NCBI GenBank assembly: GCA_026692885.1
Contig: JAPLNJ010000830.1
Location: forward strand, 1 to 19,953
DNA: 19,953 nt
Direction: 5' to 3'
Source: Planctomycetota bacterium
GTDB lineage: Bacteria > Planctomycetota > Planctomycetia > Pirellulales > Pirellulaceae
Shown: positions 3,601-11,054 of the stretch, in pieces
Layout: each line of letters starts with the position of its first letter
How positions within the stretch are numbered: position 1 is the stretch's first letter
Translations under genes and position numbers: made by a program
Notes under the pieces: model-generated
What the model saw: only the letters and a program-made list of their open reading frames with translations
The model's database searches: none
Told to the model about the DNA's origin: nothing

Positions 3601-4094
3601 CTCTTGAGTGACCACCAGACGCTTTCCACGTAGCTCTGGTGATAGGTCACGTAGGCCTCGTCCAGGTGGATCCAGAAGCCCAATCGCTCGGTCAGCCGCT
3701 CCCACTCCTGCATGTACCGCCAGACGCTCTCCTGGCAGCGGTGGATGAACGGCTCGATGCCGTAGGCTTCGATCTCTGCCTTCGAGTGGATCCCCAGTTC
3801 TTTGCAGACTTCCACCTCGACGGGCAAACCGTGGGTATCCCAGCCGCCTTTGCGTTCACACCGATAGCCGCGCATCGTGCGGTATCGGGGAAACAGATCC
3901 TTGATCGCGCGGGTCAGGCAATGGCCGGGGTGCGGCATTCCGTTCGCGGTGGGCGGCCCCTCGTAGAATACGAACCGCTCGGCGGTGGCGCGTCGTTCCA
4001 AGGACTGCTCGTAAATCCGCCGGTCTTTCCAGAAGGCCAGGATTTCAGCTTCGAGTTGGGGAAAATTCGCATTGCTTGGAACTGGGTCAAACAT
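621..4094 (-). CDS. ileS: Isoleucyl-tRNA synthetase, type-2-like
   Basis: Charges tRNA-Ile with isoleucine in the cytoplasm. Complete at 1157 residues, longer than type 1 enzymes (about 930). Seen: class I signature HPGH at 55-58; [11 protein letters not shown] at 83-93, as in the type 2/eukaryote-like branch; editing-domain sequence [10 protein letters not shown] at 224-233; WYDSGAMPF at 562-570; and signature loop [10 protein letters not shown] at 680-689, with Gln in the last KMSKS position. A C-terminal anticodon-binding and extension region follows. Odd points: [11 protein letters not shown] (180-190) and CWRAD (416-420) stand where relatives such as the Thermus enzyme have CPxC-type zinc ligands, so a zinc site seems lost. 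An acidic insert containing GDDEA twice (615-624) precedes the KMSKQ loop. The ATG at 4094 overlaps the upstream gene's TGA (TGATG), implying translational coupling. The stop touches a 131-bp mobile repeat. Function is very sure; the subtype is from motif memory. Confidence 0.97.
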
Positions 4095-4498
4095 CAGGCA
4101 TCGTCCTCGACGTCCTCGTCTGTTTCCTCGTCCGCCGCCGCCTTGGCCTTTCCTTGGGCCTTGTCGTCCTCGTTCTCGTCCGCGACGAACGGCAAGATCT
4201 CTTCCTCTTCCTCTTCTTCTTCGTCTTCGAAGTCGGCGACGAACTCCACGTTGGTGATTTCTTCTTCGGCTAGCACTTCTTCGCCTAGATCCTCGTCGGT
4301 TGCGAGGCCGTATTCGTCTTCGAGTTGTTCTTCGAAATCGTCATCGAATTCATCGTCAAAGTCCTCGAAGTCATCGTTCGCAAACTCGTCGTGGGCGAGT
4401 AGATCCGCTTCCAACGGTGGGATTTCGTCCAGCTCGTCGTCGGCATCCAGTTCGCGATCCTCATCGTCGTCGTTGGAGAACCCTGGTTTAGCGCTCAT
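4094..4498 (-). CDS. Highly acidic small protein coupled to ileS
   Basis: Not a family I can name. Seen: 134 residues, about 48% Asp/Glu, with a run of eight Glu near residues 93-100 and repeated aromatic-acidic clusters such as [21 protein letters not shown] few Lys occur only near the C-terminus (KAQGKAK). There is no signal peptide or membrane segment, so it is presumably a cytoplasmic, largely disordered protein. The ATG at 4498 is chosen over the GTG at 4501 because AGGAAG sits five bases upstream of it. Its TGA overlaps the ileS ATG by one base, so the two are probably translated from one message. Inferred possibilities: an acidic chaperone or nucleic-acid-mimic-like protein, or a spacer gene. 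The antisense Ser-rich reading frame is a shadow of the Asp/Glu codons. Confidence 0.8.
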
Positions 4499-4515
4499 CA
4501 CGACTTCCTACGGCT

Positions 4516-7571: not shown

Positions 7572-7925
7572 TCAAGGCCCCTGCAATAAGTTTAGCGAGG
7601 GAGCGGAAAGGTACTCGGCCGGGACCGTCGGCGACGGTGTGGTGAGCGACACGTCCCCCACGTATTCGTGGTAACTGGACGGCGTCCCGGTCTGACGCGG
7701 GGACGAGACCACGCGCCCCTCGTCCTGGAGGACCTCCGGCTTCAAAATCGTCGGCTGGTTCAAGATCCGGTCCGAAAGGCGTTCATCAGCGGCCGGTTCT
7801 GCCCGGTCCGAAAGAGAGGTAGCCGGAAGCGCCCCTGAACCCAAAAACGACTTGGCCAGCAACACCGCGAACACCAAACCCGTAGTTGCCAGCAGCGTTA
7901 AAAGGCGATTACTGCCAGTCGTCAT
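7572..7925 (-). CDS. Small bitopic membrane protein in the ftsL position
   Basis: 117 residues from the ATG at 7925; upstream in-frame starts to 7988 exist, but the ATG at 7925 is preceded by GATGGA at suitable spacing and puts the hydrophobic segment at the N-terminus. Seen: a short polar start, one membrane segment at about residues 8-27 (LLTLLATTGLVFAVLLAKSF), then a Pro/Ser/Thr-rich outer tail with no Cys and no evident coiled coil. Directly downstream of rsmH (84-base gap), the place of ftsL in most mraZ-rsmH clusters. FtsL proteins are likewise short and one-pass, but normally have a periplasmic coiled coil. The FtsL idea is positional inference only; no sequence family was recognised. 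Confidence 0.65.
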   Translation of the reverse strand: MTTGSNRLLTLLATTGLVFAVLLAKSFLGSGALPATSLSDRAEPAADERLSDRILNQPTILKPEVLQDEGRVVSSPRQTGTPSSYHEYVGDVSLTTPSPTVPAEYLSAPSLNLLQGP

Positions 7926-8009
7926 CAAGCGAATTCCATCGTGGGGACTGCTAGCACATTCGACCCGTGCAAGAAGAGATACTCGCATATATCGGCAGAT
8001 CGGGCCGGA

Positions 8010-8891
8010 TTATTCACTTGTCCGCTGTGCGGCACGCAATCGGGCGCTGCGGCTGCGAGGGTTACCGGCGGCTTCGCGATCCGTCGGACGAAGCGGCTTC
8101 TTGGTCAAATTCTGCAGCCGTGGATCCTGGCGGAACGCGTGCTTCACGAGCCGATCTTCCAACGAATGGAAGCTGATGACGATGAAACGGCCACCTGGTT
8201 TCAGGCAGTCCGGAATCCGTTGCAAGGCGAGTTCGAGCGATTTCAGTTCCTCGTTCACCGCAATTCGTAACGCTTGGAACGTGCGAGTGGCCGGGTCAAT
8301 CGAGTGTCCCCGGCTACGCGGAACACAACTGCGGACCAGATCGGCGAGCTGAGCTGAGGTCTGCAGGCGTACCGTCCGGCGCCGCTCGACGATCCGGCGG
8401 GCAATCCGGCGGCTAAATCGCTCCTCCCCATACTGGTAAATCAGGTTCGCCAACGGCTCTTCACGCAGCGTCTGGAGCAGTCGCCAGGCGGGTTCGCCCT
8501 GCGTGGGGTCGAACCGCAGATCCAGCGGACCGTCCGAATCGAAGCTGAAACCGCGCTCCCCGTCGGCCAATTGGTCGCTGGATAGGCCGAGGTCCAGCAC
8601 GACTCCGTCGATCGCTCCCAGACGCAATTCGGCCAACACGTCGGGCAGGTGGCAGAAGTTGGCACAAACGGGTTTAACGGGCAGACTCGCGAGATTCTGC
8701 TCCGCCGCCGCCACGGCCTGAGGATCGCGGTCGAGGGCCACCACCAGACCTCCCGGCTGAATCCGTTCGGCGAGCCGACGTGTATGGCCGCCGCCACCCA
8801 GTGTGCCATCGACCAGCACTTGGCCAGGTTGCGGCAACAGCCAGTCCAGGACCTCGTCCAGCAAGACAGGGATATGAATAGGGGTGGACAT
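8010..8891 (-). CDS. rsmH: 16S rRNA (cytosine-1402-N4)-methyltransferase
   Basis: SAM-dependent N4 methylation of C1402 in the ribosomal P site (older name mraW). 293 residues from the ATG at 8891, chosen because AGGGAC lies 4-5 bases upstream and the protein then starts STPIHIPVLLDEV as the family does; the frame is open 105 bases further up but that extension is unlike relatives. Seen: SAM loop VDGTLGGGGHT (27-37), DLGLSSDQL, RGFSF ... PLDLRFD, YGEERFSRRIARRIV, ATRTFQALRIAVNEEL, LKPGGRFIVISFHSLEDR and terminal NPRSRSARLRAAQR. All conserved blocks are present, so it should be active. It follows mraZ by 173 bases containing a hairpin, and precedes the small membrane-protein gene. Confidence 0.97.
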   Translation of the reverse strand: MSTPIHIPVLLDEVLDWLLPQPGQVLVDGTLGGGGHTRRLAERIQPGGLVVALDRDPQAVAAAEQNLASLPVKPVCANFCHLPDVLAELRLGAIDGVVLDLGLSSDQLADGERGFSFDSDGPLDLRFDPTQGEPAWRLLQTLREEPLANLIYQYGEERFSRRIARRIVERRRTVRLQTSAQLADLVRSCVPRSRGHSIDPATRTFQALRIAVNEELKSLELALQRIPDCLKPGGRFIVISFHSLEDRLVKHAFRQDPRLQNLTKKPLRPTDREAAGNPRSRSARLRAAQRTSE

Positions 8892-8948: not shown

Positions 8949-9064
8949 AACGCCGATGATCCCTTCGTCCCCGAAGAAAAACGAACGGACCACCATCCGC
9001 GGCCGAGAGGATCCCTCACCCCCGAACCCGCGATCGACCTCGACGCTCGACCGGACCAGGCCTC

Positions 9065-9583
9065 TCAGCGAGGTTGAACCGGGCGGGCGTTGACGTCGTG
9101 CGACTCCGCGAGGCGGTCGTTGCTAGGGACCGTGGCTGCGGGCCTCCCCGAAAATGCGTGGTCGGCGAGTTCGTCGTAATGCGGCTGGGTGCGACTCAGG
9201 TAGGCCTCCCAACGCTGCGTGTCCCAAACCTCCAGGTGATCGTGCACACCCAAAAGAATGATCTCTCGGCAGACCGATACCAATTGAGCTGACTCTATCG
9301 GCAGCCTCACCCGCCCCAGTTTATCGACTTCGACGCGTTGAACCTGGGCGAAAAATAGACGACTGAAGGCCCTCACTTCTCTGGCGTTCGGCGGACCTTG
9401 CTCCAATTTCTCAGCTAGACGCGAGAACGACTGTTCAGGGTAAAGGGCCAAGGTTCCATCGGTACCCGGCGCCAAGTACAGGACCGAATTCTGCGGGAAT
9501 CCGAACGCGTCCCGGAGACTCTTGGGAATCGCAAACCGAAGTTTTTCGTCAATTGATCGGCGGAAAGTCCCGGTCAGCAGCAT
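9065..9583 (-). CDS. mraZ: MraZ, transcriptional repressor of the dcw cluster
   Basis: DNA-binding AbrB/SpoVT-fold protein that forms a ring and represses its own operon in characterised bacteria. 172 residues from the ATG at 9583, chosen for the GGAGG about ten bases upstream and the family start MLLTGTF. Seen: two DxKxRxxxP-type repeats, DEKLRFAIP (12-20, with Leu in place of the usual Gly) and DKLGRVRLP (87-95). Between them lies LYPEQSFSRLAEKLEQ, and the second repeat is followed by EIILLGVHDHLEVWD. The tail after about residue 145 is an extra polar extension compared with typical 140-150-residue MraZ. Its promoter region carries five regularly spaced MraZ boxes, strongly suggesting autorepression here too. 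First gene of the mraZ-rsmH unit. Confidence 0.95.
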   Translation of the reverse strand: MLLTGTFRRSIDEKLRFAIPKSLRDAFGFPQNSVLYLAPGTDGTLALYPEQSFSRLAEKLEQGPPNAREVRAFSRLFFAQVQRVEVDKLGRVRLPIESAQLVSVCREIILLGVHDHLEVWDTQRWEAYLSRTQPHYDELADHAFSGRPAATVPSNDRLAESHDVNARPVQPR

Positions 9584-9587
9584 TGGT

Positions 9588-9632
9588 TCCCACCCTCCAC
9601 CATTTCGCACCATTTTCGCCCAAGCATACCCA
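9588..9632 (-). promoter_or_regulatory. Five MraZ boxes upstream of mraZ
   Basis: Seen on the minus strand, in order towards the gene: TGGGT (9628-9632), TGGGC (9618-9622), TGGTG (9608-9612), TGGTG (9598-9602), TGGGA (9588-9592), each separated by exactly five bases, so on the same helix face at 10-bp spacing. Known for E. coli MraZ: binding to TGGGN direct repeats with 5-bp spacers. The first box overlaps the candidate -10, and the last lies between the ribosome-binding site and the mraZ ATG. Binding could therefore block both transcription initiation and elongation. Confidence 0.85.
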
Positions 9633-9650
9633 CAATTCCTTTCTCGTCAA
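9623..9650 (-). promoter_or_regulatory. Candidate mraZ promoter
   Basis: Seen on the minus strand: TTGACG (9645-9650), 16-base spacer, TATGCT (9623-9628). The predicted start is near 9616, a leader of about 33 bases. MraZ boxes cover the -10 and everything to the start codon, the arrangement expected of an autorepressed promoter. Confidence 0.6.
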
Positions 9651-9775
9651 CATGAGGTACGCTACGACGGCTGGTTACTTCTATTGGCGACTCTCCGTAG
9701 CTTTCGACCAATTGAGAGGTTATGGCCGAGAGCAGCAGGAAAACTTTTTTTTCCCAGACCGATCGATGTCAGTAC

Positions 9776-10894
9776 TTAGGATCGCGTCGACGAAAGGTAG
9801 AGACGTTCGTACGCTGCCACCATGGCCGACAGCGAGAAGTGCTGGATGACCCGTTCACGGTTTCGGCGTCCCAACTCGGCGGCCTCCGCGGCGTCTTGTC
9901 CAACGCGAACCAGCTTGGCGACAAAGCCATCTCGATCGCCCAAGGCAACGCTTTGAGGTTCGGCCAGCGGTCCCAGCAGTTCGTCGACCCCCTGCGTCCG
10001 GACTGCCACAATGGGCAAGGCTGTGGCCATCGCCTCCAGCATGACATTGGGCATCCCTTCCCAGCGGGACGGCAGGACGAGCAGCGCGGAAGCGGCCAGG
10101 ATTTGCGGCACATCCGGCCTCCAACCTGTGAAGTGCACGCGCGCATCAATGCCTAGCGACACGGCCATTTGTTGAAGTGCTTGACGCTGTGGGCCATCGC
10201 CGACAAGTAAGAGATCGTGATGCGGCAGTTGGTCCAACCAGCGCCGGCTGAAAGACAGCAGCCAATCGACGCCTTTTTGTGGGTGGAGTCGCGCCACACA
10301 GGCAATGATTTGGCGGTCAGGCTTGATGCCGAGAGCGGAGAGACTCGCGGGGCCTGACGCTGGATACGCGGAGGTTTCGATGCCATTCGAAACAACGACC
10401 AGTTTCTCTGCCGGCAGGCCGGCTTGCTGACAGAAATCGGCGACGGAGCGGCTCACGCAGACGATACGTTGGACCCGCCGGCTGATCCAGCGTTCCAACC
10501 ATTGGCGCCAGCGGGTCGGATCAGCGACGCGAATGCCTGTCACGATGCATATTCCCGGCAGGGTTTGTGCCGCCAGGGTGGCAACCACGTTGGCATGGAA
10601 CAGAAAAGACTGCACCAGGTGCGGCTGCTGTTGGCCCCACAACATGCGAAGGCGGCGGGTGGCCGAAAACGCCTGCCGGACAGAGGTGACTCCCAAGAAT
10701 TGGACGGGCACGCCAACTGCATCCAGGCTGCGAACCAGGCCATCCCGATCCGCAGCGGGCCGTGGAGCCAGCGAATAGACAGCAGGTTCAAACCGTGTTC
10801 GATCCAACCCGGTGGCCAGGTTGACCAGACATCGTTCTGCTCCGCCCACGTTCAGTTCGGTGATGACCAGCGCCACTCGGATGCGATCGGCCAT
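9776..10894 (-). CDS. Glycosyltransferase, GT4-type (GT-B fold)
   Basis: Transfers a sugar from a nucleotide-sugar donor, probably for polysaccharide, lipid or cell-surface glycan synthesis; acceptor unknown. 372 residues from the ATG at 10894 (AAAGGGGAA about ten bases upstream); a 22-residue upstream extension of the frame is unlike the family. Seen: N-terminal acceptor half with ELNVGGAERCLVNLA (13-27), the usual GGAE loop; linker-region VVVSNGIET (166-174); ACVARLHPQKGVDWLL (198-213); LVGDGP; and donor-binding motif EGMPNVMLEAMA, with Glu279 and Glu287 as the EX7E pair. No membrane segment. The 192-base gap and the mraZ promoter downstream suggest it is a separate transcription unit from mraZ-rsmH. 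Family call is firm; substrate cannot be read. Confidence 0.93.
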   Translation of the reverse strand: MADRIRVALVITELNVGGAERCLVNLATGLDRTRFEPAVYSLAPRPAADRDGLVRSLDAVGVPVQFLGVTSVRQAFSATRRLRMLWGQQQPHLVQSFLFHANVVATLAAQTLPGICIVTGIRVADPTRWRQWLERWISRRVQRIVCVSRSVADFCQQAGLPAEKLVVVSNGIETSAYPASGPASLSALGIKPDRQIIACVARLHPQKGVDWLLSFSRRWLDQLPHHDLLLVGDGPQRQALQQMAVSLGIDARVHFTGWRPDVPQILAASALLVLPSRWEGMPNVMLEAMATALPIVAVRTQGVDELLGPLAEPQSVALGDRDGFVAKLVRVGQDAAEAAELGRRNRERVIQHFSLSAMVAAYERLYLSSTRS

Positions 10895-11054
10895 GGACCA
10901 AGTTTCCCCTTTACCAAAGAGAACATTGCCAACGAAAAACGCTGCCTCGTAGAATCGCACAGGCGGTTTCGCCGTACAAGGTGGATTTGTTCTTGGGGGC
11001 GCAGGAACAGGTTCGTAGCGGAAGTATCGGTCCGCTTGCCAAGCATGGAATTCT

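Follow-up and report, generated by a model that had tools for sequence, protein, structure and literature searches.

MraZ heads the dcw cluster in many bacteria, and its purpose there is still debated. Its operator is defined by direct TGGGN-type pentamers with a 10-bp period, located upstream of mraZ. The MraZ boxes of Escherichia coli mraZ and the dcw cluster were reportedly described by Eraso et al. in 2014. When E. coli strain SK1144 was read here, TGGG-type pentamers at 10-bp steps were found upstream of mraZ and below a TTGACA-type promoter, and the row consisted of TGGGA, TGGGG and TGGGA followed by a degenerate GGGTG, i.e. three clear boxes and one degenerate box. For the Mollicutes M. 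gallisepticum and M. genitalium, the accessible part of the published account reports an mraZ promoter with direct repeats and a compact cluster of mraZ, mraW, MG_223 and ftsZ (PMC8475190).

The stretch of DNA analysed here (the window, 19,953 nucleotides from a Planctomycetota bacterium of the Pirellulaceae, contig JAPLNJ010000830.1) carries a longer row of this type in front of its mraZ gene. We infer, with a probability of about 0.88, that this array is an operator through which mraZ is autoregulated in a planctomycete of the Pirellulales type, where MraZ would bind and repress mraZ and rsmH, transcribed as an operon. The features of the locus, in the direction of transcription, are as follows.

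9645..9650, minus strand: -35 hexamer TTGACG, a consensus match with a 16-nt spacer to the -10
9628..9632, minus strand: predicted MraZ box 1, TGGGT, the last base of which also opens the -10 hexamer
9623..9628, minus strand: -10 hexamer TATGCT, flanked by the TGG cores of boxes 1 and 2
9618..9622, minus strand: predicted MraZ box 2, TGGGC, adjoining the -10 on its downstream side
9608..9612, minus strand: predicted MraZ box 3, TGGTG, within the predicted 5' leader
9598..9602, minus strand: predicted MraZ box 4, TGGTG, the last G of which overlaps the Shine-Dalgarno-like GGAGG
9594..9598, minus strand: Shine-Dalgarno-like GGAGG, 10 nt from the ATG and between boxes 4 and 5
9588..9592, minus strand: predicted MraZ box 5, TGGGA, past the Shine-Dalgarno-like site and before the start codon
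9065..9583, minus strand: mraZ, encoding a 172-aa predicted repressor (PF02381)
8010..8891, minus strand: rsmH (mraW), 16S rRNA methyltransferase (PF01795, 7.9e-92), the next gene after mraZ
7572..7988, minus strand: 138-aa ORF with a hydrophobic stretch, directly after rsmH, with no Pfam match

The five TGG-core pentamers follow each other in exact 10-bp steps from 9632 to 9588 on the minus strand, upstream of the mraZ ATG at 9583-9581, and span 49 to 9 nt before this ATG. Being TGGGN-type direct pentamers with a 10-bp period 5' of mraZ, they have the composition of an MraZ operator. The initial annotation had described five phased pentamers reaching from the -10 to between the ribosome-binding site and the start codon, which was confirmed both by reading the sequence and by shuffling it. 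Four phased TGG were found twice in the 20-kb window, with 0.00 expected, and both matches were registers of the mraZ array. When the 150 nt upstream were shuffled 20,000 times with dinucleotides preserved, no phased TGGG/TGGT run exceeded three, a length reached in three shuffles; a pair of boxes alone is at chance level (TGGGN6TGGG was found once, with 0.92 expected). The array is overlapped by the promoter reading mraZ, recognised as a consensus match with a predicted transcription start, and TTGACG-16-TATGCT is the sole sigma-70-like site in 9000-10000 (mean of 0.1 in shuffles).

The protein encoded downstream matched the MraZ family PF02381 in two stretches with 62.4 bits (curated cut-off 23), and its predicted model matched MraZ structures, two of them promoter complexes, in agreement with an MraZ fold. 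In an alignment with E. coli MraZ, its D-E-K-L-R falls opposite D-S-K-G-R, and D12, K14 and R16 were invariant in 24/24 homologues. The closest part of the gene neighbourhood is also that of a dcw cluster, as mraZ is followed by rsmH after 173 nt. Among the 45 related loci with at least 1.8 kb of downstream sequence, tblastn with the window proteins located rsmH downstream of mraZ on the same strand in 31 and upstream in one, and did not find it near mraZ in 13.

In the proposed mechanism, an MraZ oligomer with repeated DNA-binding units would touch successive TGG cores, one box per helical turn and on one face of the DNA, as suggested by the 10-bp phase and by MraZ-promoter structures from elsewhere. 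Boxes 1 and 2 would flank the -10 and boxes 3-5 would cover the predicted leader. With a row that brackets the -10 and crosses the predicted transcription start as far as the region of the ribosome-binding site, MraZ on the DNA should keep RNA polymerase off, which would lead to negative autoregulation of mraZ and the presumably co-transcribed rsmH. Judged from sequence, the best reading is thus a known kind of switch, MraZ autorepression of mraZ-rsmH, in an enlarged form, which may or may not be as strong as the initial annotation predicted.

Several differences from the described systems became apparent. As read here, the first E. coli box is located 8 nt below the -10, whereas boxes 1 and 2 of the window bracket the -10. 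In the available part of PMC8475190, the repeat published for Mollicutes is AAAGTG[T/G], in contrast to the TGG-core boxes of the window, and ftsZ is retained in the Mollicutes cluster but not in that of the window. The solved M. genitalium complex 9sz7 contains, by its title, a '4 box promoter', one box fewer than the window. The claim of the initial annotation that there are more boxes here than in characterised systems therefore holds against E. coli, with its three boxes and a degenerate one, and against M. genitalium as far as that title goes. In the window's lineage, the row as read is longer than that of E. coli and its start is shifted upstream with respect to the -10, in a comparison that covers one lineage with no independent replicates and samples that were drawn differently. 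No paper on planctomycete MraZ boxes stood out by title among those listed from a library with few subscription journals, and we do not claim that such boxes are unpublished; a term search did not find MraZ boxes in the accessible parts of PMC5089854 or PMC9602371, and no paper on newly solved MraZ-DNA structures was among those listed by the literature search.

To follow the array in close relatives, an alignment-based scan of one genome per species (84,980 species) gave 50 mraZ loci, carrying titles such as Pirellulaceae, Pirellulales, Planctomycetaceae and similar. Together with the window, this resulted in 51 distinct upstream regions of at most 150 nt each, a biased sample as the 50 loci were chosen by similarity to the window MraZ. 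Runs of at least three, four and five TGG at 10-bp steps were present in 49/51, 41/51 and 22/51 regions, respectively, and with a strict TGGG/TGGT core in 40/51, 25/51 and 6/51, the window being among the six. At other spacings (6-9 and 11-15), three phased TGG occurred in one of the 51 regions and four in none, and 100 shuffled sets of the 51 regions contained on average 0.25, 0.01 and 0 regions with at least three, four and five. On the opposite strand of the 51 regions, no TGG run above one was found. The comparison of upstream regions proposed in the initial annotation therefore bore out the conservation of the 10-bp phase in relatives, with at least four boxes in 41 of 51. Five boxes, which it had set against about three or four in characterised systems, are not exceptional within the lineage when the TGG core is counted, and are rarer with the strict core.

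The promoter was conserved in a similar way. In 47/51 regions (all except L014, L021, L026 and L049), we could identify a promoter of the TTGA[CT] type. Its spacer was 16 nt in every case, with 15-19 permitted in the search. Of its -10 hexamers, 45/47 fit TATNYT and the other two are TAAATT. A TGG is located immediately 3' of the -10 in 31 of these 47 regions and within the 4 nt preceding it in 32. Fewer than four phased TGG were found in 10/51 regions, including L014, which does not have even one phased pair, and L025, the row of which is off phase by one base. In L026, L027, L033, L035 and L049 the row lies farther from the assigned start codon.

A family-wide search provided 30 loci, 20 of which overlap with the set of 50 and 10 of which do not. 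These contained 0, 2, 3, 4, 5 and 6 boxes in 1, 1, 8, 3, 16 and 1 loci, respectively, so that at least three, four and five phased boxes were present in 28, 20 and 17. The exceptions were L209, without a row, and L053 (from the same genome as L025), where just two boxes were phased; in L198, no promoter is visible at the run of three. Because of these counts in the 51 regions and the 30 family loci, the five-box row can be considered a trait of the lineage and not a peculiarity of one genome.

Across the phylum, the long row is much less common. We compared 90 mraZ regions from the better-scoring of the 175 Planctomycetota genomes with a match, the orders of which were unclassified. Like the window, 32/90 regions contain three or more TGG in 10-bp phase, but at least four boxes were present in only 4/90 and more than four in 1/90; at spacings of 7-9 and 11-13, a single region of the 90 reached three. 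Linkage of mraZ to ftsW/rodA (same contig, within about 15 kb) was assigned by eye for at least 24 of the 90, and others may be linked; among the matches listed, these 24 regions contained one, two, three and four boxes in 6, 5, 12 and 1 cases, and none contained five. In the comparison across planctomycetes suggested in the initial annotation, a row of four or more boxes is typical of the lineage of the window.

A different layout was observed in five other upstream regions (L140, L155, L185, L187 and L152), where one or two direct TGGG or TGGT boxes are followed a few bases on by an inverted CCCA, often at TATCCCA or TAATCCCA. This combination of a direct box and an inverted CCCA suggests a partly palindromic MraZ operator in other planctomycetes.

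It was also considered whether box 5, which reads TGGTGA in many relatives, could be an extension of the Shine-Dalgarno sequence. GGTGA was present within the last 12 nt before the start in 18/51 regions. The anti-Shine-Dalgarno pairing energy for the last 20 nt before the start was -11.5 in the window, and its mean over the 51 regions was -7.96 compared with -7.79 for shuffled letters, i.e. about equal. This explanation was not relied on.

Some other features of the window are of interest for the neighbourhood of mraZ. Downstream of mraZ and rsmH, the remainder of a canonical dcw cluster (ftsI, mur genes, ftsW and ftsZ) was not found in the window, and the order after rsmH is the 138-aa ORF, cpYpsA, a semialdehyde dehydrogenase gene (argC), argJ and then a gene which we take from its sequence to be ileS. 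In dcw clusters, the position after rsmH is that of ftsL. The 138-aa ORF has this position and no Pfam match, and tblastn matched it in 1/50 related loci; FtsL was considered as a possible identity. A very acidic, Asp/Glu-rich 135-aa ORF at 4094-4501 on the minus strand, whose stop overlaps the ileS start by one base, had no tblastn match in the 50 related loci. On the other side of mraZ, a glycosyltransferase gene is located upstream on the same strand (9776-10960, minus strand). A relative of it was found near mraZ in 23/50 related loci, in 21 of these upstream and on the same strand, so transcription could enter mraZ from it too.

The row could be explained without an active repressor. One such explanation is that the operator is a relict, in which boxes and promoter persist by descent and no longer exert significant regulation after the loss of the dcw targets. 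The absence of canonical targets and the restriction of MraZ to just 63/149 family genomes, which makes the circuit dispensable in many relatives, fit with this. However, the TGG cores keep their 10-bp phase while the spacers differ, among loci whose MraZ proteins are 45-66% identical to that of the window. In 18 aligned five-box arrays every TGG position was invariant and the spacers were variable, of which the spacers alone are informative as the arrays had been selected for TGG. As promoter-linked four-box arrays were also seen beside mraZ only, we consider a relict unlikely.

The G-rich composition of the row raises the possibility of a G-quadruplex in the DNA or mRNA instead of protein sites, and the accessible part of one report places a G4 motif 3' of the S. 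aureus mraZ promoter (PMC11796246). The unit common to the arrays is nevertheless TGG, with only two Gs in many boxes (TGGTG, TGGCA or TGGAA), and the boxes keep a constant 10-bp spacing, a regularity not required for quadruplex folding, making this explanation very improbable. That boxes 3-5 could simply be codons is scarcely credible. The mechanical ORF list does extend the mraZ frame to an in-frame ATG at 9613, which would yield a 182-aa ORF, but a 10-bp step is not a whole number of codons, and the methionine at 9583 was invariant in the alignment of 24, with N-terminal extensions in two sequences only (3 or 4, and 15 residues). Autoregulation by MraZ is therefore the reading that we prefer.

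The extent of the MraZ regulon was examined across 149 genomes from the family to which one relative (G002) belongs; 36 of these genomes contained a strict four-box match. We examined 36 four-box loci from 33 of those 36 genomes (L115 and L130 being one place), leaving out genomes G237, G239 and G337 and further places in the sampled genomes. TTGACN-16-TA[TA]NNT was present at the array in 13/36 loci, which are exactly the 13 that encode MraZ by profile check. The other 23 had neither promoter nor MraZ in the examined stretch, and many of these 23 were simple tandem repeats, while some of the 23 were located within ORFs. Promoter-linked four-box arrays were thus seen beside mraZ only, which supports a small regulon, short of proof as the strict pattern would miss targets with fewer boxes. 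Because the promoter-linked array was found only at mraZ, and because several fts and PBP targets are gone in the relatives, the MraZ regulon there is probably little more than mraZ-rsmH.

The loss of division and wall genes was determined in the same 149 genomes, and the losses of the host of the window are inferred from these relatives. The FtsZ family was matched in 0/149 (controls 13/14), FtsW/RodA in none over the cut-off, with two weak matches, and the PBP transpeptidase family in 1/149. In the phylum sample, FtsW/RodA was present in 194/199 genomes and MraZ in 175/199. These results in the relatives' family uphold the view of the initial annotation that the lineage lacks a normal FtsZ-based division cluster. 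The family profiles agree with published gene-loss profiles: according to the accessible text of one study, most of the genes for lipid II precursors, together with murJ and ftsW, were lost in the group of orders including Pirellulales, Isosphaerales and Gemmatales, and murB, mraW and ftsK were retained across all PVC (PMC12283558), and the accessible text of another states that ftsW and similar division genes are scarce in Planctomycetia and that ftsZ is missing from all Planctomycetes (PMC10632474).

MraZ itself was matched in 63 of the 149 family genomes, with E 1e-9 or better in 37, and had no match in 86, therefore the mraZ circuit is dispensable in those relatives. The 26/63 with weaker matches only may carry just a divergent second type of MraZ. 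Such a second, divergent MraZ-family gene was observed in 5/8 relatives' genomes (L090-L094, from G007, G002, G008, G004 and G001), and the 150 nt preceding the assigned starts of these five genes never contained a phased TGGG/TGGT run above two. Eight genomes of the relatives had no match to FtsW/RodA (0/8) or transpeptidase (0/8), and all eight contained Mur-ligase-domain proteins, a family which also includes non-wall ligases, and MraY-family proteins that were all below the cut-off. Possible wall-gene targets may therefore remain. The proposal of the initial annotation that the circuit had survived the loss of most of its target genes stands in so far as it persists in relatives where several canonical dcw targets are gone, with the qualifications that some wall genes remain, Mur-ligase-domain proteins being matched in 8/8 genomes, and that MraZ itself was matched in just 63/149.

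A joint reading would be that the Pirellulales MraZ regulon collapsed to mraZ-rsmH together with the loss of division and wall genes, and that its operator, originally with about three boxes below the -10, was extended to four or five that bracket it. We put this forward tentatively, as a possibility with somewhat less than even odds.

To summarise, the array has the sequence of a well-conserved MraZ operator, a known kind of element that is here extended so as to enclose the -10. It is kept by some members of a lineage in which several of the genes under MraZ control elsewhere have been lost, and the survival of the mraZ circuit in this lineage is patchy. The five- and six-box arrays raise the question of how a longer row is bound by MraZ, whose solved promoter complex has four boxes. 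As FtsZ is absent from the lineage, whatever MraZ still does there cannot depend on ftsZ dosage, and by keeping MraZ, its boxes and rsmH without FtsZ and FtsW/RodA, and nearly without PBP transpeptidases, part of the lineage separates the role of MraZ from division. If the regulon did collapse, MraZ would have changed from a regulator of the dcw cluster at large to one dedicated to a 16S rRNA methyltransferase, and this remaining role too would have been lost in many sister genomes.
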